Under the pieces are notes generated by a model. The model searched no databases and was not told the DNA's origin. It saw only the letters and a program-made list of their open reading frames with translations. Positions 1 through 28,092 of a stretch of DNA of 30,186 nt are shown here, in pieces; the stretch's first letter is position 1, and every line of letters begins with the position of its first letter. Position numbers and translations under genes: made by a program. Origin of the DNA: a virus; the IMG/VR virus record IMGVR_UViG_3300028772_000056, positions 1-30,186 of that record; one strand, given 5' to 3'.

Positions 1-1856
1 TCATTGATCAAATTATTTATACTTTCGTTTAATGAGTTTCCGATTTTTTGTACTTTGCTTCCTAGTCTTGTGATTTTAGATTCATGTACTTCAACTGGTT
101 CTTCTTCAGTGTCCAATTGTATAACAACCATACCATTTTGTGGATTAGTTGCAAGTACTTCACCTGTTTTGTCACCTACTGCAATTGTTTCTCCTGGTGT
201 TGGTAATCCGCCTTCTTCAGTTTCACCTTGAACTGGTTCTTCAACTGTTGGTTCAATTGGTTCTTCTGTTGGTAGTTCACCTTCTACAGCTGGTTGAGCT
301 TCAACTTCTTCTCCTTCTCCTTCTACTTCTTCACCTTGTACTGGTCGAGTAATAGGCTGATCTGTCGTTGGTTGAGCAGGTTCTGCTGCTGGACCTTCCA
401 TTGTAGGAGCTTGATCTTCATAATATCCATTAATGTCAATATCTTTAGTATTTTCATCTTCTGTTATGAATTCAAAATTTTCAAGTACTTTACCAGTTTT
501 TAATTTTTCTGTAAGAAGTTTTGATTTTTCGATAGTTTTATCCAAACTTTCAGCGATGTAATTTGTATAAGCCATAGAATCATCAAGATTTTCAGCTATA
601 TATTCTGAATAAGATATGTTGTTATCTACGTGTTCAGCAATGTATTCTGAATATGCAATATTATTGTCAAGATTTTCAGCTACATATTCTGAATAAACAA
701 TAGAATTATCTAGATTTTCAGCTAAATATTCTGAATAAACAATAGAACTGTCAAGATTTTCAGCAATGTATTCTGAATAGTCAATAGATTTGTCAAGATT
801 TTCAGCAATGTATTCTGAATATTTGATATTTTTATCTACATGTTCGGCTATATATTCTGAGAAATCAATATTTTTATCTAAAGTTTCTGCAATATATTTA
901 CCATAATCAATAGATTTGTCAAGATTTTCAGCTAAATATTCTGAATAGTTTCCTATTTTTTCAATGTTTTCAGCAAGATAATCATTGTGTTTAATTAAAT
1001 CTGTTGTTGTTTTTTTCAATTGAACATTTTCATTTACAACAAATTGCATACTTTCTGCAAGATAATCTAAATATTTTACCATTTTTGATTGTTGTTCATG
1101 TAATTGTTCGTAATAATCAAGTACACTTTCTAATTTGGCAGGATCAAAATCGACATTTTTACCTTTAACCATGTCATTAATTTTCAATTTAAAGGTTTCA
1201 ATTTCTTCTGTTAAATAATTAGAATACTCTGTCATTTGTTTTTTTGTTACAAAGTCTTCGTTCATTTGGAATAATTCATTTATTTTTGACTCGTCGGATA
1301 AATCATATATCCTAAAGTAATCTTTGTCACTAAATCCATAACTTTCATTTAATGATTTGACTTCCATTCTAGCTGAACTGAAGCCTGGATCTGCAACTGC
1401 ATCATATGTAAATAATTTTTTAACTGTAACAGTACCATCTGATTCGGTGATGCCCGCGGCTCTGGATGATACGAAAATAGGACAACCATCATCAACAAGT
1501 GCTTTCGCTTCTTTACCCCAATGGGTATTTAACAATCTAATTTCTCCTTTTACAGAATTTGATGCTTTATCAAATACAGCATTTTCGATTGTGTGCGAAA
1601 CTCTTCCTAATGAAGTGTCAAAAACATCTGGGTGATCAAATTCACCATAAACTACTCCTAATTGATTTTTACGAGCTAAAAGTTCGTCAAGGTGAGGTAA
1701 GAATTTTTCAGCAGTATAAATTCTATCATTTCTATTCTTGATATTAAATTCTGTGAAAGTTCCACCTAAAATGTAATTACCTTTCTTTTGATCAGTTTGT
1801 TCATTTATTGGCTTTAGACCGTCCATACAATGTTCTACGATAAGAACTGGTTTCAT
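1..1856 (-). CDS. 21: Prohead protease fused to repeat-containing scaffold (T4 gp21-like), partial
   Basis: The gene starts with ATG at 1856 and is still open at the window edge, giving 618 residues. Residues 1-190 look like a phage prohead serine protease: YGEFDHP (His75), SLGRVSHTIE and VSSRAAG (Ser130/Ser131) match the family's GELDHP and S(S)RxxG blocks. T4 gp21 matures the prohead by cutting scaffold and internal proteins after Glu in (L/I)xE. Residues 190-290 are helical, 290-443 are eleven 14-residue repeats, 470-550 are acidic and Pro/Glu-rich, and 551-605 resemble a small SH3-like barrel. T4 gp21 is only about 212 residues and its scaffold gp22 is separate, so this appears to be a protease-scaffold fusion. 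It follows the portal, as in the T4 order 20-67-68-21. The protease call is firm; the scaffold role is inferred. Confidence 0.85.
   Translation of the reverse strand, partial: MKPVLIVEHCMDGLKPINEQTDQKKGNYILGGTFTEFNIKNRNDRIYTAEKFLPHLDELLARKNQLGVVYGEFDHPDVFDTSLGRVSHTIENAVFDKASNSVKGEIRLLNTHWGKEAKALVDDGCPIFVSSRAAGITESDGTVTVKKLFTYDAVADPGFSSARMEVKSLNESYGFSDKDYFRIYDLSDESKINELFQMNEDFVTKKQMTEYSNYLTEEIETFKLKINDMVKGKNVDFDPAKLESVLDYYEQLHEQQSKMVKYLDYLAESMQFVVNENVQLKKTTTDLIKHNDYLAENIEKIGNYSEYLAENLDKSIDYGKYIAETLDKNIDFSEYIAEHVDKNIKYSEYIAENLDKSIDYSEYIAENLDSSIVYSEYLAENLDNSIVYSEYVAENLDNNIAYSEYIAEHVDNNISYSEYIAENLDDSMAYTNYIAESLDKTIEKSKLLTEKLKTGKVLENFEFITEDENTKDIDINGYYEDQAPTMEGPAAEPAQPTTDQPITRPVQGEEVEGEGEEVEAQPAVEGELPTEEPIEPTVEEPVQGETEEGGLPTPGETIAVGDKTGEVLATNPQNGMVVIQLDTEEEPVEVHESKITRLGSKVQKIGNSLNESINNLIN
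528..989 (-). repeat. Eleven tandem 42-bp coding repeats in the scaffold part of the protease gene
   Basis: Read on the minus strand, these are eleven in-frame units of 14 residues with consensus YSEYIAENLDxxIx. They run from HNDYLAEN to YIAESLDKTIE with no insertion or deletion. Fourteen residues equals two heptads, with hydrophobic residues spaced for a continuous helix. Nearly every unit contains IAE, LAE or VAE, which fits the gp21 cleavage rule. Synonymous codon differences between units point to selection on the protein and not to a recent expansion. Confidence 0.9.
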
Positions 1857-2877: not shown

Positions 2878-4647
2878 TTAAAATTCTGCTTCACCTTGTG
2901 ATTGTCCGCCTCCTTGTGCTTGACCACCTCCTTGTGCTTGTCCGCCTCCTTGCGCTTGACCACCTCCTTGTGCTTGTCCGCCTCCTTGCGCTTGTCCGCC
3001 TCCTTGTGCTTGACCACCTCCGCCTTCTCCACCAGGAAATCCTGGTTCTCCGCCTGGAAATCCTCCCATGTCACCTCCGCCTCCGCCAGATGCTCCAGCT
3101 CCTTCTCCTGCTGTACCACTCATCATTTTGCATTTATTGTTTGATTCAATATCTTTATCAGTAAATTTCATAATATTTCTAACTATCCATTCAATTGATA
3201 AATATGGTTTTCCCTCTCCATCTTGTAGATTGCTGGATAATGTTGATGCGATTTCTGCTCTTTTTGCTAAATTGTTCAAATATTTCCATTCTTCAAATAA
3301 ATCATTAGAATTGAAATTTAATTTAATGTAACTTTCAAATATTCTATCACTGCTCAATTCTGGAAATTCTAATACCATCTGTATTTTTAATGGCTTAACT
3401 AATACCTCTTTGAATAATGTTCTTAATCTACTAACAAAATTTTTGAATCTTATTTCATCCATTGTAATTGATGCTGTATCATCATAAAAATTACCACCAC
3501 CCTGGTCTTCATCTAATCTAGAAAATGGCATTTTTGATGCTCTTTTAAATGATTTATAAAACCATTGTAATACTATATCTTCATTTAATTCTGCTTGTTG
3601 CGGTTGTAAAATTTCCATTTCTGGAGTACCTAATTCTGATGTTGGAAACCAATAATCTTTAGAATGAGGAATTTTAGTTGAGCCATTTATATATGGTATT
3701 CCTGTTGTATCATCCCATTCTATATCTTCATGATATTCACTCATCAACTGACTAATTTGCTGTTCAGCTTGTTGTCTAGTTAATCCATTTACAGGAATTA
3801 CAAATTTTTTATATATTGATGCCTGATTTAAATTATACATCAATTTTGTGAATTCTAACAACTTAAGTTGATTATAAGGTTTAATCAATCCTTCTACATA
3901 ACTTGTTTCATCATAGTCTAAATTATTTGAATATGAAATATAAATAATATTAGCATCTAATAAAACTCTTCTTAATTGTGGAACATCTGGATTTTGAATC
4001 CAAACAACAGTTCCAGTACCTGGTTCTGCAGCTACAATTAAAGTTAAAGGATCCAATAAATTTAATTCAATTATATTTTTTTGATCATCGTCATAAACAA
4101 TTTCAAATGATAAAAATCCATCAATTAAAAATGTTTTCATGTAATTCCAAGCTGTTAATCCATCATTAAAGTTAAATGCATTATAAATTTTTTTAAAATT
4201 TTCCTGATATTTTACTCTTATTGATTGATCATAAGTATCTGGTAAATCAGAAACAGTGCAAAAATAATTATCATCATCATAATTTATTGCTTCTTCTGCA
4301 ATTCTAGTTACGTAATCTTTAATTTCTTCCTTTATTGCGTACTGATGTAATATTTTTCTTTTGTCTAAATATCTACGATCTAAATAAGCAATAGATTTTT
4401 TTTCTAATATTTTAGAAATTATTTTTTTTGTGAATAAATCGTACATGTTTGTACCAGGTTCATAAAGCAAATTACTGGTATCTTGAAATGCGCCAATAGC
4501 CTGACTGTTTCTAACAACCATTTCTTGCTCGTCCATTCCAAAATTACTTAATTTTCTTAATATTTTATTTCCAAAGCTTTTTCCTACATTACCTCTACCA
4601 AAATCATACATGGAATTTGGCTGATTATATCTGTTATATGTTGCCAC
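2878..4647 (-). CDS. 20: Portal protein (T4 gp20-like)
   Basis: The portal forms the dodecameric ring at one capsid vertex for DNA packaging and tail attachment. At 589 residues it is somewhat longer than T4 gp20 (524). The block KMPFSRLDEDQGGGNFYDDTASITMDEIRFKNFV, cited here only by its key parts (PFSRLDEDQ, ITMDEIRFKNF, then LRTLFKEVLVKPLKIQM), is characteristic of gp20. The start is GTG at 4647 (MATYNRYNQ), with no in-frame ATG close by. The C-terminal 70 residues are Gly-rich and end in seven six-residue GGGQ(A/S)Q repeats not found in T4. An AATATATAA element lies 21 bases upstream. Confidence 0.95.
   Translation of the reverse strand: MATYNRYNQPNSMYDFGRGNVGKSFGNKILRKLSNFGMDEQEMVVRNSQAIGAFQDTSNLLYEPGTNMYDLFTKKIISKILEKKSIAYLDRRYLDKRKILHQYAIKEEIKDYVTRIAEEAINYDDDNYFCTVSDLPDTYDQSIRVKYQENFKKIYNAFNFNDGLTAWNYMKTFLIDGFLSFEIVYDDDQKNIIELNLLDPLTLIVAAEPGTGTVVWIQNPDVPQLRRVLLDANIIYISYSNNLDYDETSYVEGLIKPYNQLKLLEFTKLMYNLNQASIYKKFVIPVNGLTRQQAEQQISQLMSEYHEDIEWDDTTGIPYINGSTKIPHSKDYWFPTSELGTPEMEILQPQQAELNEDIVLQWFYKSFKRASKMPFSRLDEDQGGGNFYDDTASITMDEIRFKNFVSRLRTLFKEVLVKPLKIQMVLEFPELSSDRIFESYIKLNFNSNDLFEEWKYLNNLAKRAEIASTLSSNLQDGEGKPYLSIEWIVRNIMKFTDKDIESNNKCKMMSGTAGEGAGASGGGGGDMGGFPGGEPGFPGGEGGGGQAQGGGQAQGGGQAQGGGQAQGGGQAQGGGQAQGGGQSQGEAEF
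2896..3021 (-). repeat. Seven 18-bp repeats encoding GGGQAQ at the portal C-terminus
   Basis: Six GGGQAQ units and one final GGGQSQ unit are encoded in tandem on the minus strand, before the last residues GEAEF. The units differ by synonymous changes (CCG/CCA for Gly, TGC/CGC-type third-base swaps), so they have been kept as protein. The block is much richer in GC than the surrounding DNA because of the Gly codons. Confidence 0.9.
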
Positions 4648-4718: not shown

Positions 4719-5489
4719 TTATAAATTTTCAATTAATTTTAGATTTTTTTCAAAATTTTTTAATGATGTATAAAAATTCTCAATATCTTTTTCATAAAGT
4801 TTTAATATTTCTTCATATATTTTTATTTTATCTGAAAAATCTAATTTCAACTTATTATTCACTATATTGTTCAATGTGTCGTACATTAAACCATTATTTA
4901 TTTTGTATGTATCTAAAAAAACAAATCTTTGAAGAATTGTTGAAGATACTTGATATACGTTCTCAATTTTAGATATATCATATGCTGTTATTGAGTAATT
5001 CTTTTTTCCATTAATTTTTAAATATTGATAAATCCAATTTACATTAAAATTAAATTCATTATTTACAACATCACCTTTTGATATTTTATCGGAATTTTTA
5101 TCGTATCTATCTGGATTAGCCTGGATTATTGAATCAATTAATTGTGCTTTGTATAATACTGGTAAATAATCAAAATTTATAGCATATAAAATTTTTTTAA
5201 TGTTAACAATTTTTAATTGACTCTCTAAAATTCCAAGTTCATTTGAATTTTTTATGGGTGGTATGGTTAAAATTGGACACCATAATTTATTTCCATTATA
5301 ATTATATTTAATTATATAAAATTTACCAATTTGAATATTCGCTAATGTAGTTGATCTTATTTGCTTATTTGGATATCTAATGATATAATTAAATATCTCT
5401 TCTGTTGATTCTTTTCTAATCAAATTTATATTTTGATTGTATTGTCCAAATAATGCTTTGAGTTCATCAGTGAATGACATGTTATTCAT
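4719..5489 (-). CDS. Unrecognised protein between gp4 and portal genes
   Basis: This 256-residue protein overlaps the stop of the gp4 gene by four bases (ATGA) and is therefore probably translationally coupled to it. Residues 45-125 (IGKFYIIKYNYNGNKLWCPIL, then KILYAINFDYLPVLYKAQLID) suggest a beta-rich fold with a conserved NF(D/H)YLP block that I associate with conserved phage structural proteins. The C-terminal third is helical and Lys-rich. In T4 the gene after gp4 is the baseplate wedge gene 53, but I see no convincing similarity to gp53. A virion or assembly role is suggested by context only. Confidence 0.75.
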   Translation of the reverse strand: MNNMSFTDELKALFGQYNQNINLIRKESTEEIFNYIIRYPNKQIRSTTLANIQIGKFYIIKYNYNGNKLWCPILTIPPIKNSNELGILESQLKIVNIKKILYAINFDYLPVLYKAQLIDSIIQANPDRYDKNSDKISKGDVVNNEFNFNVNWIYQYLKINGKKNYSITAYDISKIENVYQVSSTILQRFVFLDTYKINNGLMYDTLNNIVNNKLKLDFSDKIKIYEEILKLYEKDIENFYTSLKNFEKNLKLIENL

Positions 5490-6013
5490 TTTATTATACC
5501 ATATTTTTTCAAATCATCTTCAGAAATTATTATAAATTTCAAATTATGTCTTTCACACCATTCTTTTGTGAAATGCCATTTATGTATATTTTTTTTGTAT
5601 GTATTTAAAGAATATTCATAATTTTCTAACATTTTTAATGTTTGCCTAGTAGGTGGTTTGGGAGGTTCAGTTTCATGTTTAGGTTTAACTTCAACTACAA
5701 GTCTATCATATCTTTCTTTGTCGTTATGATCAATCATTTCCAGATAGTAATCTGGATAATAACGATGAGTTTCTATCTGTCCTAACTTATTTTTGTATTG
5801 ATATGGAATCTCCAAACTTTCAGAACTCCATTTTAATACTTTATCATTTAAATCACAAAATCTACAAAATCCTAATTCCCATGAACTGAAATATTTTATA
5901 GGAAGAATTCCAATGTATTTTTCTTCATTTTCAAGATTATAAAAACCCTGATGATATTTATTTTTACCATTTTTATTCTTTCTATTTCCAAATGTTGCTT
6001 TATTTGCTCCCAT
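5486..6013 (-). CDS. 4: Head-completion protein (T4 gp4-like) with nuclease fold
   Basis: T4 gp4 acts late in head maturation, before tail joining. This 175-residue protein has the family blocks in order: NKYHQGFYN and KYIG near the N-terminus, SSWELGFCRFCD (Glu46), LKWSSE, HRYYPDYYLE (Asp88) and VVEVKP (Glu108, Lys110). These residues make an E...D...ExK arrangement like PD-(D/E)xK nucleases. T4 gp4 is about 150 residues with the same blocks. The start is ATG at 6013, three bases after the preceding gene. Confidence 0.9.
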   Translation of the reverse strand: MGANKATFGNRKNKNGKNKYHQGFYNLENEEKYIGILPIKYFSSWELGFCRFCDLNDKVLKWSSESLEIPYQYKNKLGQIETHRYYPDYYLEMIDHNDKERYDRLVVEVKPKHETEPPKPPTRQTLKMLENYEYSLNTYKKNIHKWHFTKEWCERHNLKFIIISEDDLKKYGIIK

Positions 6014-7215: not shown

Positions 7216-8502
7216 TTATATAATCATTCTTTTTGCCTTAACTTTATCGTCTTTAACAGATTTCAAGTTTTCGTATAAATCATGTTTAGATACTAATAAT
7301 TGATTGAAAGTTTCTTTCAATGCTTTATCTTCATTTACTAATACTTCATTTTCTTTTAACAATTCTAATCCTTTGTCAATTTCTTTGATAGATTCTTTTA
7401 TTTCCATTTCTTTATCTTCTAATGTTCTCAAATGTTTTACTTCTTTTGAAAGTTTGTTTTCTAAGAATCCTGTTAAATCATAATCTAATTCTCTTTGAAC
7501 ATCATTAATTAAATCATTTGGTGAATTATATTCATAAAAAGCAGAACCTGTTCTAGTGTCATTGTTATAAGTATATAATTTATCTTTATAATTTATAACA
7601 TAAGACTCCAATTGTGGATGTAATACATTTTCTATTTTTAATGCAATATCTAAGTCAACAAATTTGTCCAAATTTTGTGCTGTTGTTGTTGATAGTACAT
7701 AAAAATCTTTTTTCAACCAAGGAATAATTTTTGAATTGAATAAGTTTTCTAATGTAGTTTCTTTATCTAATTTTTCTTCATTTAAAAATACATCTTTGTC
7801 TGATTTGGTTGATATGCTTAATACTAAATTTTCATCTAGTCTAAATGAAATTTTATCTTCATTTATATCTCCAATAGTCATAACTTTTTCTAGAATTCTA
7901 AATTCTCTTAATTTTTCAATATCTGTGATATGATTTTCTAAAAGTGTTTGTTTAATTTCATCTTGCCCGATTAAAAACCAACGGTCTTTCATAAATACTA
8001 AATTTCCTTCATTTGTTTTTTCTACTAATGTAAATACTTTTGATGCACTCCCTGAATTTACTAAATTTTGTCTTTGAATAGGATTATTCATATAACCAGA
8101 TAAGAACATTTTTACTTCAGGAATCCAATCATGAATAACCAATTCATTTAATATAGTACTCATTTTTGAATCATTATCTTGAATGTTTATAATATTAAGA
8201 ATAGAGTTCAAAGCTGGACGATACATTTGACCGTAATTTTTTCTTTCAATTTTTTTGTATAAATCTTTTAAATTGTAATTTATAGGCTCACTTTTTATTT
8301 CATCCTGTAAAGATTCTACTAATCTTTTAACTTTTGTGTCCCAAGCATATCCTGCTAAGTTTTCTTTTAAAGAACTTACTAGCTCTTTTTCAGAATAATT
8401 ATCATAATTGCTAATGTATCTCTCAACAATTATATTTAATTCATAATCTTCAATAGGTAATTCCTTTTTGAAATTAAACAAATCATACTTTAAATTTTTC
8501 AT
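7216..8502 (-). CDS. Unrecognised 428-residue protein with C-terminal coiled coil
   Basis: The protein begins MKNLKYDLFNFKKE, loosely like the tag peptides elsewhere in the window. Residues 15-140 are helical; 140-340 appear alpha/beta with blocks VFMKDRWFLIGQDEI and FDLDIAL-like segments; 345-428 is a Lys/Glu-rich coiled coil ending KVKAKRMII. There are no membrane segments or catalytic motifs that I recognise. Its size and place beside head and tail genes suggest a virion or internal protein. It is first in a two-gene transcript. Confidence 0.75.
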   Translation of the reverse strand: MKNLKYDLFNFKKELPIEDYELNIIVERYISNYDNYSEKELVSSLKENLAGYAWDTKVKRLVESLQDEIKSEPINYNLKDLYKKIERKNYGQMYRPALNSILNIINIQDNDSKMSTILNELVIHDWIPEVKMFLSGYMNNPIQRQNLVNSGSASKVFTLVEKTNEGNLVFMKDRWFLIGQDEIKQTLLENHITDIEKLREFRILEKVMTIGDINEDKISFRLDENLVLSISTKSDKDVFLNEEKLDKETTLENLFNSKIIPWLKKDFYVLSTTTAQNLDKFVDLDIALKIENVLHPQLESYVINYKDKLYTYNNDTRTGSAFYEYNSPNDLINDVQRELDYDLTGFLENKLSKEVKHLRTLEDKEMEIKESIKEIDKGLELLKENEVLVNEDKALKETFNQLLVSKHDLYENLKSVKDDKVKAKRMII

Positions 8503-8633
8503 ATTTTTTATTTTTTTTATTTTTTATTTTCTGCGTGTTGCATGTTTTACTTGTTTTATGATGTTCTCTGAGATTATATATTAAATTAAAAAACTCATTT
8601 TTCGATAAAAAACATTTTTTGTTAATATTATTT

Positions 8634-8642
8634 TATATATAA
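8634..8642 (+). promoter_or_regulatory. Candidate late promoter before the 70-residue gene
   Basis: TATATATAA lies 19 bases before the ATG at 8662. Twenty-two bases (8633-8654) are identical to those at 28133-28154, which stand at exactly the same distance from another plus-strand start. The match includes the TAAAAAATAAAT that follows the motif. Confidence 0.55.
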
Positions 8643-8661
8643 TAAAAAATAAATATATCTT

Positions 8662-8874
8662 ATGAAATTTATAAAGACATATGAGAATTATTCAAGCTTG
8701 AACGTATCTCTTGATGGTAAATCTAAAATGAGAATAAAAATAGGAGATGATATATTAGGTGGTAGATTTAAAAATAAAAAACTAAAAGTGAAATCTATAA
8801 ATATAAATCAGAAAGGTGATATAACAATTAATAATAAACCTTTTATAAAAATGAGAAAAACAAAAAAATCATAA
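8662..8874 (+). CDS. Small protein with MKFIKTYENY start and SH3-like domain
   Basis: The product has 70 residues. Residues 1-12 (MKFIKTYENYSS) match the recurring capsid-targeting-like leader. Residues 22-65 (MRIKIGDDILGGRFKNKKL and VKSININ) have the pattern IGDxxxxGRFKNKKxKVKxI...NxKPxIKMR. That pattern recurs in small conserved proteins of T4-like phages and probably forms a small beta barrel. It is a single-gene transcript: a promoter candidate lies upstream and a palindromic terminator overlaps the stop codon. Function is not known. Confidence 0.75.
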   Translation: MKFIKTYENYSSLNVSLDGKSKMRIKIGDDILGGRFKNKKLKVKSININQKGDITINNKPFIKMRKTKKS

Positions 8875-13336: not shown

Positions 13337-13906
13337 ATGAAAGTTAAAAAGTTCAATGAAAGTTTTAGTATGGAAGTAGATGATGATTTTAAAATGATGA
13401 AGAAGTCATCAAAACTTACTAATGTAGTTAATGATTATATAATTGATTTCAATGAAAATACAGATAGTGGAATTATTAATTGGATTTCTGAAATGGCAGG
13501 TAAAAATGTTACTAAATTATCAGAATATAAAAATTTGTATACTGAACAAAAATTAATTGATTTTGGCTCTGATAAAAATTTAAAATCATTAATTCAATAT
13601 GGTGAAGTAAAATTAGAATGTTCTGATATTATTAATGAAATTGAATCTCTGGAAAGTAAAATAAAAAAATATGTGAATAAAAAACAGAAAATATTTACTG
13701 ATGCATCAAGTCAATTAATGTATAAATTTCAAGAAGACTTATTTCTAAAAGATTTTAATGGATTGTACAATCTTTTCATAATAGATTCTGTTGAAGATCA
13801 ACTTGATCCATTATCAGATATTCATCCTGATATAGTTACTAAATATGGAGACAAAATAATTGAAATTGTTAAACCTATAATATCATCAAAAAAATTTAAT
13901 ATATGA
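13337..13906 (+). CDS. MKVKKFNES-tagged protein, possible packaged protein
   Basis: I place the start at ATG 13337 (MKVKKFNESFSME), because an upstream TTG start would begin in the terminator. The 189-residue product opens with a capsid-targeting-like peptide containing FNE followed by Ser, a possible gp21 cut. The body is helical with SDIINEIESLESKIKKYVNK as a coiled coil. It ends KKFNI. The stop overlaps the next start (ATGA), and the DNA around the junction, 13888-13910, recurs exactly at 14208-14230. No known fold is recognised. Confidence 0.75.
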   Translation: MKVKKFNESFSMEVDDDFKMMKKSSKLTNVVNDYIIDFNENTDSGIINWISEMAGKNVTKLSEYKNLYTEQKLIDFGSDKNLKSLIQYGEVKLECSDIINEIESLESKIKKYVNKKQKIFTDASSQLMYKFQEDLFLKDFNGLYNLFIIDSVEDQLDPLSDIHPDIVTKYGDKIIEIVKPIISSKKFNI

Positions 13907-14226
13907 AAAAATTTGATGTTTTTGTTAATGAATCAAAAAAATCTTTCAATCAAAAAAGAGAAGAATTGGAAGAATATAAAAAAGGTTCTATTGTAGTATT
14001 TAAATCCGTGTATAAATCTGGTGTAGTACAAAAAAATATTTATGAAATAAGAGTAGGAGAAATAATTGGTTATAATTTTGATTATTCAGTATATATGTAT
14101 TTGATAGATGATATTATTGATAACGGACAATGGATGGTTCCAAAATCAAGAGTTAAAAGATTAGCAACTGATAGAGAAATTGAAAATTATAAAATGAAAG
14201 AGGAAGCAAAAAAATTTAATATATGA
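13903..14226 (+). CDS. MKKFDVFVNES-tagged protein, possible packaged protein
   Basis: The 107-residue product begins MKKFDVFVNESKKS. VNE followed by Ser fits the (L/I/V)xE rule for gp21 cleavage. Residues 27-85 are beta-rich (KGSIVVFKSVYKSGVVQ, IYEIRVGEIIGYN, QWMVPKSRVKRL) and look like a small SH3-type barrel. It ends KKFNI and overlaps both neighbours by four bases. T4 internal proteins have this plan of cleaved leader plus small basic domain, but no specific homologue is recognised. Confidence 0.75.
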   Translation: MKKFDVFVNESKKSFNQKREELEEYKKGSIVVFKSVYKSGVVQKNIYEIRVGEIIGYNFDYSVYMYLIDDIIDNGQWMVPKSRVKRLATDREIENYKMKEEAKKFNI

Positions 14227-14558: not shown

Positions 14559-15119
14559 ATGAAAAAATTAAAAGATTTTGTTGAATTTGTTAATGAAGCC
14601 TCAATACATGGAGGAACTAAAGAAGGTGGAGATAATTATCAATCTCCTGAAGAAAATAAAAAAATAGCAACAAATATCATTAATGCTATTCATCCAGCAT
14701 TAAACAATTCAGGATTTAAGGTCAATGTGGATATGAGTGGAAATGATCAAAACCCAAATTTGAATAAAATATTAGAATCAACAGATAAATTAGCACTTAT
14801 AACTACTAATTTTTCTATTGGTTGGGATGGTAAAAATAGAGCAGGCGGAATTCATGTTTATGTAAATAAAAATAATTTAGATTCATTGCGTGAAACTATA
14901 AAAAATATTGATCATCCATTTGTTAGAATGGAACAAAGAGCATGGATGATAAATACTACTGCAACTGTACCTTGCCTTATAATTTATGATGATGGAGTTG
15001 AAAATACTGTATCAACAACAGAAACCACAACAGTTCAGCCAACAACTACTACACAACAAACAACAACAGTTGCTCCAACAACTACTACACAACAAACCAC
15101 AGTTGCTCCAACTGTATAA
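14559..15119 (+). CDS. MKKLKDFVEFVNEAS-tagged protein with Thr-rich tail
   Basis: The 186-residue product begins MKKLKDFVEFVNEASIHGG. VNE followed by Ala is the clearest predicted gp21 site in this cluster. Residues 25-148 form an alpha/beta domain (IATNIINAIHPALNN, ALITTNFSIGWDG, GGIHVYVNK) that I do not recognise. Residues 152-186 are almost only Thr, Gln, Pro, Val and Ala, in two copies of PTTTTQQTT(T)VAP. Such a tail is probably unstructured. The gene ends at a terminator shared with the convergent adenylyltransferase gene. Confidence 0.75.
   Translation: MKKLKDFVEFVNEASIHGGTKEGGDNYQSPEENKKIATNIINAIHPALNNSGFKVNVDMSGNDQNPNLNKILESTDKLALITTNFSIGWDGKNRAGGIHVYVNKNNLDSLRETIKNIDHPFVRMEQRAWMINTTATVPCLIIYDDGVENTVSTTETTTVQPTTTTQQTTTVAPTTTTQQTTVAPTV
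15037..15116 (+). repeat. Direct repeat encoding the Thr-rich tail
   Basis: A 34-base unit with the core CCAACAACTACTACACAACA occurs twice, in frame, at the end of the tagged gene. The copies differ by a deleted codon and a C/A change. ACA/ACT repeats of this sort can change length by slippage. Confidence 0.7.
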
Positions 15120-25218: not shown

Positions 25219-25602
25219 TTATAAATTGTATTTGTGTGATGAACTACCTAATTTAGAAATATTAAAAGATGTTTCTGATTTTTCATTTTCTTTCCATTTA
25301 TTATTAAGATATTTATATATTTTCTTATTTAATAAATAAGAGCAATCCACATTTATTTCATTAATTTTAATTTTGTAACCAGGAATACCAAAAAACATAT
25401 CATCTCTGACTTCAACTGTACGGTCATCTAATTTATATCCAATAAATCCTTCATCTTTAAATGGGCTTCCAAATAAATTTTTTGAATCATAATTATCTTT
25501 AATTTCATTAAAAATACTTTTTATTTCTTCGTCAAAATCTGAAGTAAATATACCGCCTACCATGGTATCTTTAAAAGATTCAAACTTTTTTAATTTTTCC
25601 AT
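25219..25602 (-). CDS. MEKLKKFESF-tagged protein, possible packaged protein
   Basis: The product has 127 residues, starts MEKLKKFESFKDTMVGGIF and ends HKYNL, a variant of the KFN(I/L) ending. The first eight residues equal those of the 90-residue gene at 7201. Residues 20-100 are alpha/beta (FDEEIKSIFNEIKDNYDSK, FIGYKLDDRTVEVRDDMF). It starts three bases past the upstream gene. No function is recognised. Confidence 0.72.
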   Translation of the reverse strand: MEKLKKFESFKDTMVGGIFTSDFDEEIKSIFNEIKDNYDSKNLFGSPFKDEGFIGYKLDDRTVEVRDDMFFGIPGYKIKINEINVDCSYLLNKKIYKYLNNKWKENEKSETSFNISKLGSSSHKYNL

Positions 25603-25605
25603 TTG

Positions 25606-25920
25606 TTATTTGTTTTTATCTTCTTTTTCTACTTCTTTTTTACCATTTTTTAATTCTTCTGCATATTCTTCATCTATTTCTTTCAATAATGATTGAAATT
25701 CGCCGATATGGGTTTTTTCCTCTCTGGCTACATCTAGTAAAACATCTTTGATTTTTCTATCGTTAGCTTCGTCAGCCATTTGTTCGTATAAATTGATAGT
25801 ATCTAACTCAGCTAAAATTGCTGCTCTTAGAATCTGTTTATCTGATGATGTATTTTTTGAACCTGGTATAGATGACAATGTTTCATTTAAAAAATCGTCA
25901 AACCTTAAAGTTTTTTTCAT
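25606..25920 (-). CDS. Capsid-tagged ferritin-like protein (EncFtn-like)
   Basis: The 104-residue product starts MKKTLRFDDFLNETLSS. LNE followed by Thr fits gp21 cleavage. Residues 30-85 are two helices with ILAELDTINLYEQMADEAND and LLDVAREEKTHIGEFQSLL. Encapsulated ferritin (EncFtn, for example from Rhodospirillum rubrum) uses Glu32, Tyr39, Glu62 and His65. Here Glu38, Tyr45, Glu68 and His71 keep the same spacings (7, 30 and 33). EncFtn works as a two-helix half-ferritin whose dimer oxidises iron in an encapsulin shell. The C-terminal 15 residues are Lys/Glu-rich. Iron binding is inferred; a rubrerythrin-like fold is the alternative. Confidence 0.78.
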   Translation of the reverse strand: MKKTLRFDDFLNETLSSIPGSKNTSSDKQILRAAILAELDTINLYEQMADEANDRKIKDVLLDVAREEKTHIGEFQSLLKEIDEEYAEELKNGKKEVEKEDKNK

Positions 25921-25922
25921 TT

Positions 25923-26273
25923 TTATTTATCTTTTTTGTCTTTCTTATCGTCTTTATCTTTTTTATCTTTCTTTTCTTCTTTTTTATCATCTTTCTTATC
26001 GTCTTTATCATCGTCTTCTTTACCTTCTTCTTGTCCGCATTCACTTACAATTTTATAGTAATTATCCATTGATAATTTACCTTCTTTTTTTGAAATTTTA
26101 AGTGCAATTTCAGTTGCTTTATGCAAATCCATATCAGTTTTAGCATCTTCTTTTGCAAATTCTAGCATACGAATAAACAATGGTACATCCATTGTAATTG
26201 TATCAACAACATCTTCATTGTCATGATGTTTCTCAGTTATGAAATCATCAAAATTTAACGTTTTTTTATCCAT
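25923..26273 (-). CDS. MDKKTLNFDDFITEKHH-tagged protein with Lys/Asp tail
   Basis: The 116-residue product begins MDKKTLNFDDFITEKHHDNE; ITE is a possible cleavage site. Residues 24-75 (ITMDVPLFIRMLEFAKEDA, DMDLHKATEIALKISKKEG, LSMDNYYKIV) form a helical domain that I recall from conserved proteins of other large T4-like phages without known function. Residues 78-116 are a low-complexity Lys/Asp tail that could interact with packaged DNA. It starts nine bases past the preceding gene. Confidence 0.75.
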   Translation of the reverse strand: MDKKTLNFDDFITEKHHDNEDVVDTITMDVPLFIRMLEFAKEDAKTDMDLHKATEIALKISKKEGKLSMDNYYKIVSECGQEEGKEDDDKDDKKDDKKEEKKDKKDKDDKKDKKDK

Positions 26274-26282
26274 TGGGTTTAA

Positions 26283-26906
26283 TTATTTTTTTGAGAATGA
26301 TTCAAAATTTTTCATTCTTGATATATTAAATTTTATACTTTCTTTTTTTGGTTGAATAGGCTGTGAAACTTCTGATTGAGAACTATGAACTTTAACTTTA
26401 TCAGTTGTTTTAGGCTGATCTTGTGTATTAGGCTGAGCTTGCGCTGTTGCTACTTGTCGTGTGTTCTGTGCTAGATCTTCTTGTTTTTTTACTTGATATT
26501 CATCACCAGTATATTCTATTACATTTTTTGAAATTTCAACATCAATAAAATTTCCACCTCTTATTTCTCCTCCTTCTATTTTTCCTTTGAAAAAATTTCC
26601 TTTGTATATAATTCCTGATTTAAAAATTCCATTTCTCCATACTCCATTGTACCAAACACCATTTTGCCAATTTCCATATCTCCATTCTCCATCTCTCCAT
26701 ACACCAAAATACCAATCACCGTTGTACCAAATGCCAGCATTCCAAACTAATGTATCTTGAAAAATTTCAAGTCTAGCATTTTTTATTTCTGCATTAACCA
26801 TCCAATTAAATTTATTATCAATTAGAATCTCGTCAATTTTCCACTGTTCAGTGAAAATTTCACCATTAAACTTCAATTCAGAATACCTAAGCTCTTTACT
26901 TACCAT
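26283..26906 (-). CDS. Protein with WxNGxW pentapeptide solenoid and terminal tag remnant
   Basis: Residues 52-115 of this 207-residue protein are about thirteen five-residue units of the type (W/F/I)xxGx: VWNAGIWYNGDWYFGVW, then YGNWQNGVWYNGVWRNG, IFKSGIIYKGNFFKG. This suggests a tight beta-solenoid like MORN or pentapeptide proteins. Residues 130-190 are Gln/Thr/Pro-rich and unfolded. The end reads KFNISRMKNFESFSKK, which is the KFNI ending and MKNFESF start of the neighbouring gene family joined in one frame. A surface or head-interior fibre role is possible but not established. Confidence 0.75.
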   Translation of the reverse strand: MVSKELRYSELKFNGEIFTEQWKIDEILIDNKFNWMVNAEIKNARLEIFQDTLVWNAGIWYNGDWYFGVWRDGEWRYGNWQNGVWYNGVWRNGIFKSGIIYKGNFFKGKIEGGEIRGGNFIDVEISKNVIEYTGDEYQVKKQEDLAQNTRQVATAQAQPNTQDQPKTTDKVKVHSSQSEVSQPIQPKKESIKFNISRMKNFESFSKK

Positions 26907-26941: not shown

Positions 26942-27376
26942 TTATATATTGAATTTATCAGAATCAACAAAAAACTTAAACTCTGGTATTGTTTCTAATT
27001 GATTTTTATAATTTATTACAAATCTAGCTTTCCAATATTCCATATTTTCTTTTTTGAAATCTTCACGAATTTTATTGTATAGTTTTTCACAAGTATCTTT
27101 ATGATTATTATAAAACTCAACTGGTGTCATAAAATTAATTTTATTCAATTCTTCTATTGTAATAGATAAACTATCGCCTACAGGATCAATAATATTTCCA
27201 TTTTTGTCAACATCAAAACATTCAAATTCTACATAAACCATAAAATTATCTTTGAAATCTATACGGTTACACAAAGCAATATACATATCAATATTTTCAT
27301 CTTCTGAATTAAAAAGACAAAACTTACCGACATAATCAGATTCATTATTATTCTCAAATTTTTTTATATATTTCAT
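26942..27376 (-). CDS. MKYIKKFENNNES-tagged protein, possible packaged protein
   Basis: The 144-residue product starts MKYIKKFENNNESDYVGKF and ends SDKFNI. The middle is beta-rich (GKFCLFNSEDENIDMYIALC and FMVYVEFECFDVDKNG), followed by a helical part with TCEKLYNKIREDFKKENM. The codon for Phe in KFNI is TTC here and TTT in its neighbours, and no gene start overlaps this end. It overlaps the upstream gene by four bases. Confidence 0.72.
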   Translation of the reverse strand: MKYIKKFENNNESDYVGKFCLFNSEDENIDMYIALCNRIDFKDNFMVYVEFECFDVDKNGNIIDPVGDSLSITIEELNKINFMTPVEFYNNHKDTCEKLYNKIREDFKKENMEYWKARFVINYKNQLETIPEFKFFVDSDKFNI

Positions 27377-27693
27377 AAATTAAATTTTTCTGTATTTTTT
27401 ATTATTTCATATTCTTCTAAACTCTGAGCAGTTGAAAAATTCTTAGAAACTTCTGAAGGATTGAAAAACAATTTGTGTTCATTATCATCAATAAATGATA
27501 TCATAAATGAACTTATATTTTTTATATCGTATAATTTACCAATTGTTAAGTCATATAAATCTTCTAATTCTCCTATGTGATTATCAATACACAACATTTT
27601 TTTAAGATTTCTATGTAATCTTCCATAAGGGTCACAATATATTTTTTCACGATTGTTATATACTCCTTCTTCAAACTTTTTTAAATATTTCAT
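27373..27693 (-). CDS. MKYLKKFEEG-tagged protein, possible packaged protein
   Basis: The 106-residue product starts MKYLKKFEEGVYNNREKI and ends NTEKFNL. It contains KMLCIDNHIGELEDLYDLTIG, cited by KMLCIDNHIGE and YDLTIGKLYDI, followed by the hydrophobic SSFMISFIDD. The stop overlaps the next start with the sequence AAATTTAATTTATGAAAT. The fold might be a small SH3-like barrel. No function is recognised. Confidence 0.72.
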   Translation of the reverse strand: MKYLKKFEEGVYNNREKIYCDPYGRLHRNLKKMLCIDNHIGELEDLYDLTIGKLYDIKNISSFMISFIDDNEHKLFFNPSEVSKNFSTAQSLEEYEIIKNTEKFNL

Positions 27694-27696
27694 TAA

Positions 27697-28092
27697 CTAT
27701 AAATTAAATTTTCTTGCATTTATAACGTTGTCAAACTCTCCTGTTTTCTCCATTGTTTCGAACATATCAATCAAATCATTAATTAAATTTTTATTAAATA
27801 TAAATTTCAAAGTTCCAAATGCAAGTACAAAATTTCTATATTCTATTTTTCTATTATCCAAATTTAATTTTATGAAATTTATCAAATCTTCATTTTTTTT
27901 ATAATTTTCAAAATTTATCATAATAACATCTTTCTTTGCTTCAATTTCAACTGTTATATTTAATGATGATAAAATTGTAAATAAATTATACATTTTTGTT
28001 TCTCCATAATAACGAGTTAGAAATTTTCTTATTGCTATTGTTAAAGGTTTTTTGAAATTTTTTATTGATTCAAACGTTTTTAAATATTTCAT
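27697..28092 (-). CDS. MKYLKTFESI-tagged protein, possible packaged protein
   Basis: The 131-residue product starts MKYLKTFESIKNFKKPLTIAI and ends NARKFNL. The body is helical and basic (KFLTRYYGETKMYNLFTILS), then DVIMINFENYKKNEDLINFI. It is first in the minus-strand tagged cluster, divergent from the 28162 gene. Its leader MKYLK(K/T)FE matches the downstream gene at 27693 closely, suggesting a common origin of the ends though the bodies differ. Confidence 0.72.
   Translation of the reverse strand: MKYLKTFESIKNFKKPLTIAIRKFLTRYYGETKMYNLFTILSSLNITVEIEAKKDVIMINFENYKKNEDLINFIKLNLDNRKIEYRNFVLAFGTLKFIFNKNLINDLIDMFETMEKTGEFDNVINARKFNL

Follow-up and report, generated by a model that had tools for sequence, protein, structure and literature searches.

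HK97-type phage capsids are the presumed ancestors of encapsulins, whose commonest cargo proteins include those of the EncFtn type. In R. rubrum EncFtn two irons are bound by Glu32, Glu62 and His65 of two chains, with Tyr39 sitting close to the site (PMC5012862), and replacement of Glu62 by Ala abolishes activity (PMC11202242). EncFtn forms a decamer 7-8 nm wide (PMC11202242) and fails to mineralise iron on its own, the shell being needed (PMC5012862). EncFtn of R. rubrum and EncB and EncC of M. xanthus enter the encapsulin via C-terminal peptides, and the P. furiosus domain (PFC_05175; PDB entries 5n5e and 2e0z) is fused to its cellular encapsulin shell.

The internal proteins (IPs) of phage T4 are the other described system of relevance. 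IPI is an antirestriction protein and, to our knowledge, no enzymatic activity is known for IPII and IPIII, whose genes (ipII and ipIII) both start with MKTYQEFIAE. The first ten residues of IPIII are enough for packaging, residues 4 and 7 acting in targeting and residues 8 and 10 in processing, and the T4 prohead protease cuts after L/I-x-E (PMC9026906).

The window analysed here (the whole stretch of 30,186 nt, IMG/VR record IMGVR_UViG_3300028772_000056) contains an open reading frame whose coordinates, strand (minus) and length (104 aa) were confirmed, and whose product had been described in the original prediction as a capsid-targeting-like leader joined to a two-helix EncFtn-like domain. 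Its features are the following:

25606..25920, minus strand: gene of 104 aa with leader and EncFtn domain (ATG start; stop codon within the coordinates)
25882..25920, minus strand: capsid-targeting-like leader, residues 1-13 (MKKTLRFDDFLNE), predicted cleavage after E13
25606..25881, minus strand: predicted mature protein, residues 14-104 (91 aa, 10.4 kDa, pI 4.75; cleavage inferred)
25807..25809, minus strand: codon of Glu38 (EncFtn Glu32), from sequence, invariant in 32 phage domains
25786..25788, minus strand: codon of Tyr45 (EncFtn Tyr39), from sequence, invariant in 32 phage domains
25717..25719, minus strand: codon of Glu68 (EncFtn Glu62, bridging ligand), from sequence, invariant in 32 phage domains
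25708..25710, minus strand: codon of His71 (EncFtn His65), from sequence, invariant in 32 phage domains

The reading preferred here, to which a probability of roughly 0.7 was assigned, is that a T4-type capsid-targeting sequence (CTS) directs packaging of the protein, which is trimmed after Glu13 and works in the head as a ferroxidase; its packaging, its cleavage and its iron chemistry are all inferred.

The body of the protein is an EncFtn domain, based on sequence, predicted fold and invariant ligands. In phmmer searches against the PDB the best match was the P. furiosus EncFtn domain (5n5e; residues 28-98, E=6.2e-21), together with the version of this domain that is linked to the encapsulin shell (2e0z, E=4.5e-20), both well outside what chance would give; the next matches were EncC and EncB of M. 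xanthus and EncFtn of R. rubrum. The Pfam family EncFtn-like (PF22277) was barely above its cut-off (E=2.7e-6; 27.5 bits vs. 27) and was outscored by Rubrerythrin (PF02915; 6e-8, 33.6 bits), which was also above its own cut-off. The single-chain AF2 model (27 sequences in the alignment; pLDDT 86 overall and 97-99 in the helical pair) consisted of two long antiparallel helices and a short C-terminal helix, the EncFtn helices of the mature protein being predicted at residues 27-51 and 55-82 and the C-terminal one at 84-102. Among the Foldseek matches listed, all were EncFtn-type structures, and 5n5e ranked first in VIA-align (Z 11.0, rmsd 3.5 over 92 residues). Unrelated helical bundles and hairpins also scored Z near 9, so that the case for EncFtn rests on sequence and ligands rather than on Z.

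About half of residues 28-98 were identical to the P. furiosus domain (46-53% in structural alignments), with ligands, spacing and predicted helices shared, while the R. rubrum and M. xanthus proteins have the same half-ferritin fold and iron site at 20-33% identity. The P. furiosus domain sits inside an HK97-fold shell, as is inferred for the phage protein, but it is fused to the shell protein, whereas the phage protein has its own gene and an N-terminal leader that looks cleavable, without any encapsulin, and lacks the C-terminal peptide of the R. rubrum and M. xanthus proteins. The gene, leader and domain included, was kept in three relatives (L001, L003 and L006), and comparison of four related phages indicated purifying selection, with dN/dS of 0.03-0.10 for the domain and higher values, 0.11-0.24, for the leader. 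No family was found in PHROGs for the 104-aa protein, no relative was retrieved from INPHARED when it was used as query, and no BFVD entry matched at E<=0.001, the top one being a protein with a rubrerythrin domain from Pyrobaculum filamentous virus 1. The latter (A0A140F3M3) is short and has a similar predicted fold, so half-ferritins may also exist in non-tailed archaeal viruses.

The iron-site residues singled out in the original prediction (Glu38, Tyr45, Glu68 and His71) stood at EncFtn spacings, all four at +6 relative to R. rubrum numbering, the same offset with which query residues 31-91 aligned to residues 25-85 of Rru_A0973 in phmmer. Across 32 phage domains, with identities down to about 30%, eight columns were invariant: Glu38, Tyr45, Glu67, Glu68, Lys69, His71, Asp83 and Glu96. 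Since the search seeds covered the regions of Tyr45 and Glu67-69, invariance there was partly selected; Glu38 and His71 lay outside the seeds. This pattern bears on whether the protein could be a structural component of the core, its ring shape being what counts and its iron site not. IPIII does affect T4 head assembly (PMC9026906) and EncFtn does form rings (PMC5012862), but such a role was judged very improbable, given that the ferroxidase residues are nearly the sole invariant positions among phage copies that are only about 30-50% identical.

The leader agrees with the capsid-targeting sequence of T4 at each of the four positions whose function has been tested, as residues F7, F10, L11 and E13 of MKKTLRFDDFLNE correspond to Y4, F7, I8 and E10 of IPIII at identical spacing, and it carries an L/I-x-E prohead protease site at L11-N12-E13; that it directs packaging is inferred. 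Further points shared with IPII and IPIII are the small size of the protein, the N-terminal position and length of the leader (10-19 residues) and the presence of a T4-type protease in the same phage, which, with the aromatic residues at 4 and 7, Ile/Leu at 8 and Glu at 10, supported the capsid-targeting character originally ascribed to the leader. Unlike the T4 internal proteins, the body of the phage protein is a metal-site enzyme domain (iron chemistry and packaging inferred), and the mature form is acidic (pI 4.75) whereas the T4 proteins are basic (PMC9026906).

The motif [FYW]xx[FYW][ILV]xE, built solely from the tested IPIII positions, picked out only ipII and ipIII among 81 T4 ORFs. 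Relative to expected counts taken from internal stretches, it was in excess at N-termini in the window (4 vs. 0.78 expected), in G001 (9 vs. 0.27) and in G002 (6 vs. 0.07), as well as in L040 (5 of 12 ORFs; 0.10 expected), L042 (8 of 24; 0.00) and L063 (5 of 13; 0.43). In addition to the EncFtn gene, leaders of this type were found in the window at:

13903..14226, plus strand: ORF with CTS-type leader MKKFDVFVNE
14559..15119, plus strand: ORF with CTS-type leader MKKLKDFVEFVNE
25923..26273, minus strand: neighbour with the same leader as the EncFtn gene (MDKKTLNFDDFITE) and an unrelated body

The neighbour at 25923-26273 is a probable second head cargo. The leader it has in common with the EncFtn gene was supported by best-match permutation (p=0.0005); tested one by one, leader sharing was significant in 3 of 19 loci (the window phage, L006 and L052), with a combined p of 0.001 over all loci tested, and was thus taken as supporting evidence only. 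The leader was present in all close relatives.

Runs of unrelated genes with common MKFKEYLNE or MRFKQYLTE leaders, some with P-loop-like bodies, were also observed in L042 (4000-11200), L039, L040 and L063, and suggest that T4-like phages package extensive sets of enzymes in their heads. In L052, a virus record of 411 kb, the leader MNPRKAFEQALAK or one near to it was present on three ORFs in a row (7582-8737), of which the middle one encodes EncFtn; this leader is a candidate for a different kind of head-targeting signal.

The T4-type identity of the window phage was supported by head genes at the opposite end of the window:

1..1856, minus strand: T4-type prohead protease fused to a repeat scaffold (PF03420, E=1.8e-7; cut off by the window end)
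2878..4647, minus strand: T4-type portal protein (phrog_213, E=1.1e-58)
5486..6013, minus strand: head closure protein (phrog_218, E=3.7e-36)

Further genes of the window encode a clamp loader, an exonuclease and a dUTPase, with a weak late-sigma match. A gp23-type capsid protein (PF07068, E=2e-24) was encoded in near-identical contigs, namely the close relatives G002 and G005, and not in the window fragment itself. The EncFtn gene lies among orphan genes and not among head genes; T4 ip genes are likewise apart from the head cluster. An alternative would be that the contig was misclassified as viral and that the protein is an ordinary cargo of encapsulin, to which its closest solved relative, an encapsulin-fused domain, could point. 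This is barely tenable in view of the window genes for portal, prohead protease, head closure, clamp loader and a late sigma-like protein, and of the gp23-like capsid protein of near-identical contigs. Moreover, no encapsulin gene (PF04454) was detected in 25 phage records (several of them fragments) or in the Ammonifex genome, three controls being positive, and the C-terminus (EVEKEDKNK) had no encapsulin targeting peptide and no fused shell domain.

The protease-scaffold at 1..1856 holds many [FYLV][ILVM][ATN]E sites, and its full-length copy in L026 had 20, vs. 0.87 in shuffles. The same motif occurred within the first 25 residues of 5 window ORFs (0.60 expected; p=4e-4), with no significant N-terminal excess in G001 or G002. 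The scaffold (window 1-1856 and L026 13911-16256) was also seen to be made of a 14-residue repeat with a Y-[ILV]-A-E site in each unit, apparently made for being cut up. The idea that the leader mimics these repeats was discarded (score of 20, matched by 2112 of 5000 shuffles), as was a late-promoter clue, TATAAATA, which was only slightly more frequent than expected in the AT-rich window (24 vs. 15), with no occurrence clearly marking the gene.

Profile scans of IMG/VR detected the EncFtn domain in about 25 distinct phage lineages, many of them unrelated tailed phages, and the arrangement of leader and ferritin recurred in other phages. Leaders preceding EncFtn included MKFQDYINE (L038), MSKFKDYITE (L040), MVNFKDYLTE (L063), MGKFKNYLVE (L041) and MKGFGNFIDE (L037). 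With one representative per phage lineage, [ILVM][TNSAGV]E was found before the domain in 16 of 21 lineages, whereas only 3 of 30 proteins of cellular origin had it (p=3e-6); shuffling of the phage leaders gave a mean of 4.5 and a maximum of 11. A CTS-type leader was found in 6 of 21 vs. 0 of 30. No obvious protease motif was seen in the leaders of the phage copies L068 and L052. Cellular relatives start where the phage leader ends (MMSRLPLDL in Ammonifex, L018; LSKIPVNI in L107), the phage counterparts at the same point being ..MLSE followed by LLSKIPLD in L014 and MKNFYEFMKINE followed by LLATTPVDL in L062. Judging from these alignments, cleavage at the leader site would recreate a native cellular-type start.

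These comparisons also bear on whether the protein is instead a ferroxidase that is produced late in infection and stays in the cytoplasm without ever being packaged, the leader being a coincidence or serving some other use. Stand-alone cellular relatives (L018 and L107), the absence of an encapsulin gene from the Ammonifex genome and phage copies without a clear protease site such as L068 would suit that explanation, which nevertheless appears unlikely: it cannot account for the fusions to portal and head protease described below, and against it stand the agreement of the leader with IPIII at the four tested positions, its recurrence on unrelated proteins of the same phage and the sharp difference between phage leaders and cellular N-termini.

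Gene context in the other phages, assigned by phmmer to T4 proteins, was one of head, neck and tail genes. In L040, L041, L060 and L063 the EncFtn gene had the gp13 neck gene as its neighbour, and the gene for the terminase large subunit was immediately upstream; it followed the gp13 neck and terminase large subunit genes and preceded gp15 in L053/L054, and followed gp14-gp15-gp16 in L037. In L036 it was located between gp53 and a gp5-like hub, in L014 after a gp4-like gene, and in L058 a terminase gene was close downstream. Independent fusions were also found: portal-EncFtn in L050, portal-EncFtn-topoisomerase IB as a single open frame of 902 aa within the head module in L045 (5929-8634), EncFtn with a DUF2213 head maturation protease in L015, and NUDIX-EncFtn proteins within the head module in L049/L051. 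As far as can be inferred from gene fusions, other phages would thus place EncFtn in the head by other routes, through the portal or the head protease. L045 and L050 fit the description of polyvalent virion proteins, which are head-delivered and multi-domain, some of them fused to portal or MuF, and in the survey of which ferritin-like domains go unmentioned (PMC5512222).

The sole INPHARED isolate with a detectable relative was Eggerthella phage LE2-3 (LE23_74, MW679026), found by querying with other phage copies and the P. furiosus domain. Its gene lies between the portal and capsid genes, as a member of the head cluster, and the E, Y, E and H residues are kept; the protein differs in its length (948 aa), in its distant domain (39% identical to P. 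furiosus) and in having no T4-type leader.

Under the preferred reading, the gene product would belong to the internal head proteins of a T4-like phage. Residues 1-13 would serve as the capsid-targeting sequence and carry the protein into the core of the prohead, and the T4-type prohead protease of the phage would then cut after Glu13 (L-N-E) and release a 91-residue EncFtn starting about as its cellular relatives do. Two paired chains, an assembly that is itself inferred, would build the di-iron site from Glu38, Glu68 and His71 of each, with Tyr45 nearby, so that Fe(II) could be oxidised inside an HK97-fold head as it is by EncFtn in an encapsulin. The shell that EncFtn needs would then be the phage head, and the main job of the protein may be to hold Fe(II) and peroxide chemistry away from packaged or entering DNA. 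The iron handling, DNA protection and delivery to the host listed in the original prediction remain possibilities.

As to where the protein would act, the head was given slightly better than even odds, the host after ejection a sizeable minority share, and any other site little weight. The protein might be packaged via the same leader and act only after ejection, oxidising or withholding host iron as T4 IPI or Alt act in their host, with the effect of blunting iron-dependent oxidative damage or defence in the new host. T4 IPs and Alt are indeed ejected and have their effect in the host cell (PMC9026906). Other phages have the domain on one chain with modules that are delivered by the virion, as in the portal-EncFtn-topoisomerase IB protein of L045, and the 948-aa protein of LE2-3 adjoins an ArdA antirestriction gene. 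A folded decamer of 7-8 nm is too wide for the tail tube, however, so monomers or dimers would be required, and there are no delivery data; action after ejection was considered possible but less likely than not. That such a ring cannot cross the tube intact speaks for a protein that either works inside the head or is ejected in smaller units. EncFtn decamers may also be awkward in a DNA-filled head, which counts against the preferred reading.

In a tree of 67 rows and 64 columns, with cellular sampling mostly from Bacillota, phage copies mostly grouped with P. furiosus and the Ammonifex group, and at least three changes between phage and cell were required. The portal and protease fusions formed a clade of their own, apart from the leader type. 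Given the few columns and the mostly Bacillota sampling, the direction of transfer could not be resolved. It is conceivable, on evidence that falls short of making it probable, that EncFtn has a second natural compartment of the HK97 fold in the heads of tailed phages, which several phage lineages load independently by T4-type leaders, portal fusion or head-protease fusion, and that encapsulin and phage systems share one EncFtn pool; with a shared pool, encapsulin cargo may have its source in phage heads, or phage cargo in encapsulins. No report of EncFtn in phage heads was found in the open-access literature (subscription papers and preprints were outside the search). The main encapsulin survey deliberately excluded phage neighbourhoods (PMC8346489), so that cases of this kind would be missed. 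Each part of the proposal was already known, and the combination is new. If true, EncFtn in the phage's own HK97-fold head would be the missing parallel to encapsulin and would bear on encapsulin origin, and T4-type internal proteins, whose roles are mostly unknown, would gain a concrete chemistry open to testing, the oxidation of iron next to packaged DNA.

Many of the small orphan proteins that have leaders of the MKxxKxFE type were also observed to terminate in [FY]-N-[IL]-stop, usually after K. Such endings numbered 6 in the window (0.11 expected; ORFs 13337-13906, 13903-14226, 25219-25602, 26942-27376, 27373-27693 and 27697-28092) and 15 in G001 (0.41 expected), and there were none in T4. 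The combination of leader and C-terminal signature, of unknown meaning, was also present in G001, G002 and L006. A GxWxxGxW repeat protein was encoded at 26283-26906 of the window, and another at 8625-9047 of L067, near EncFtn in an unrelated phage.
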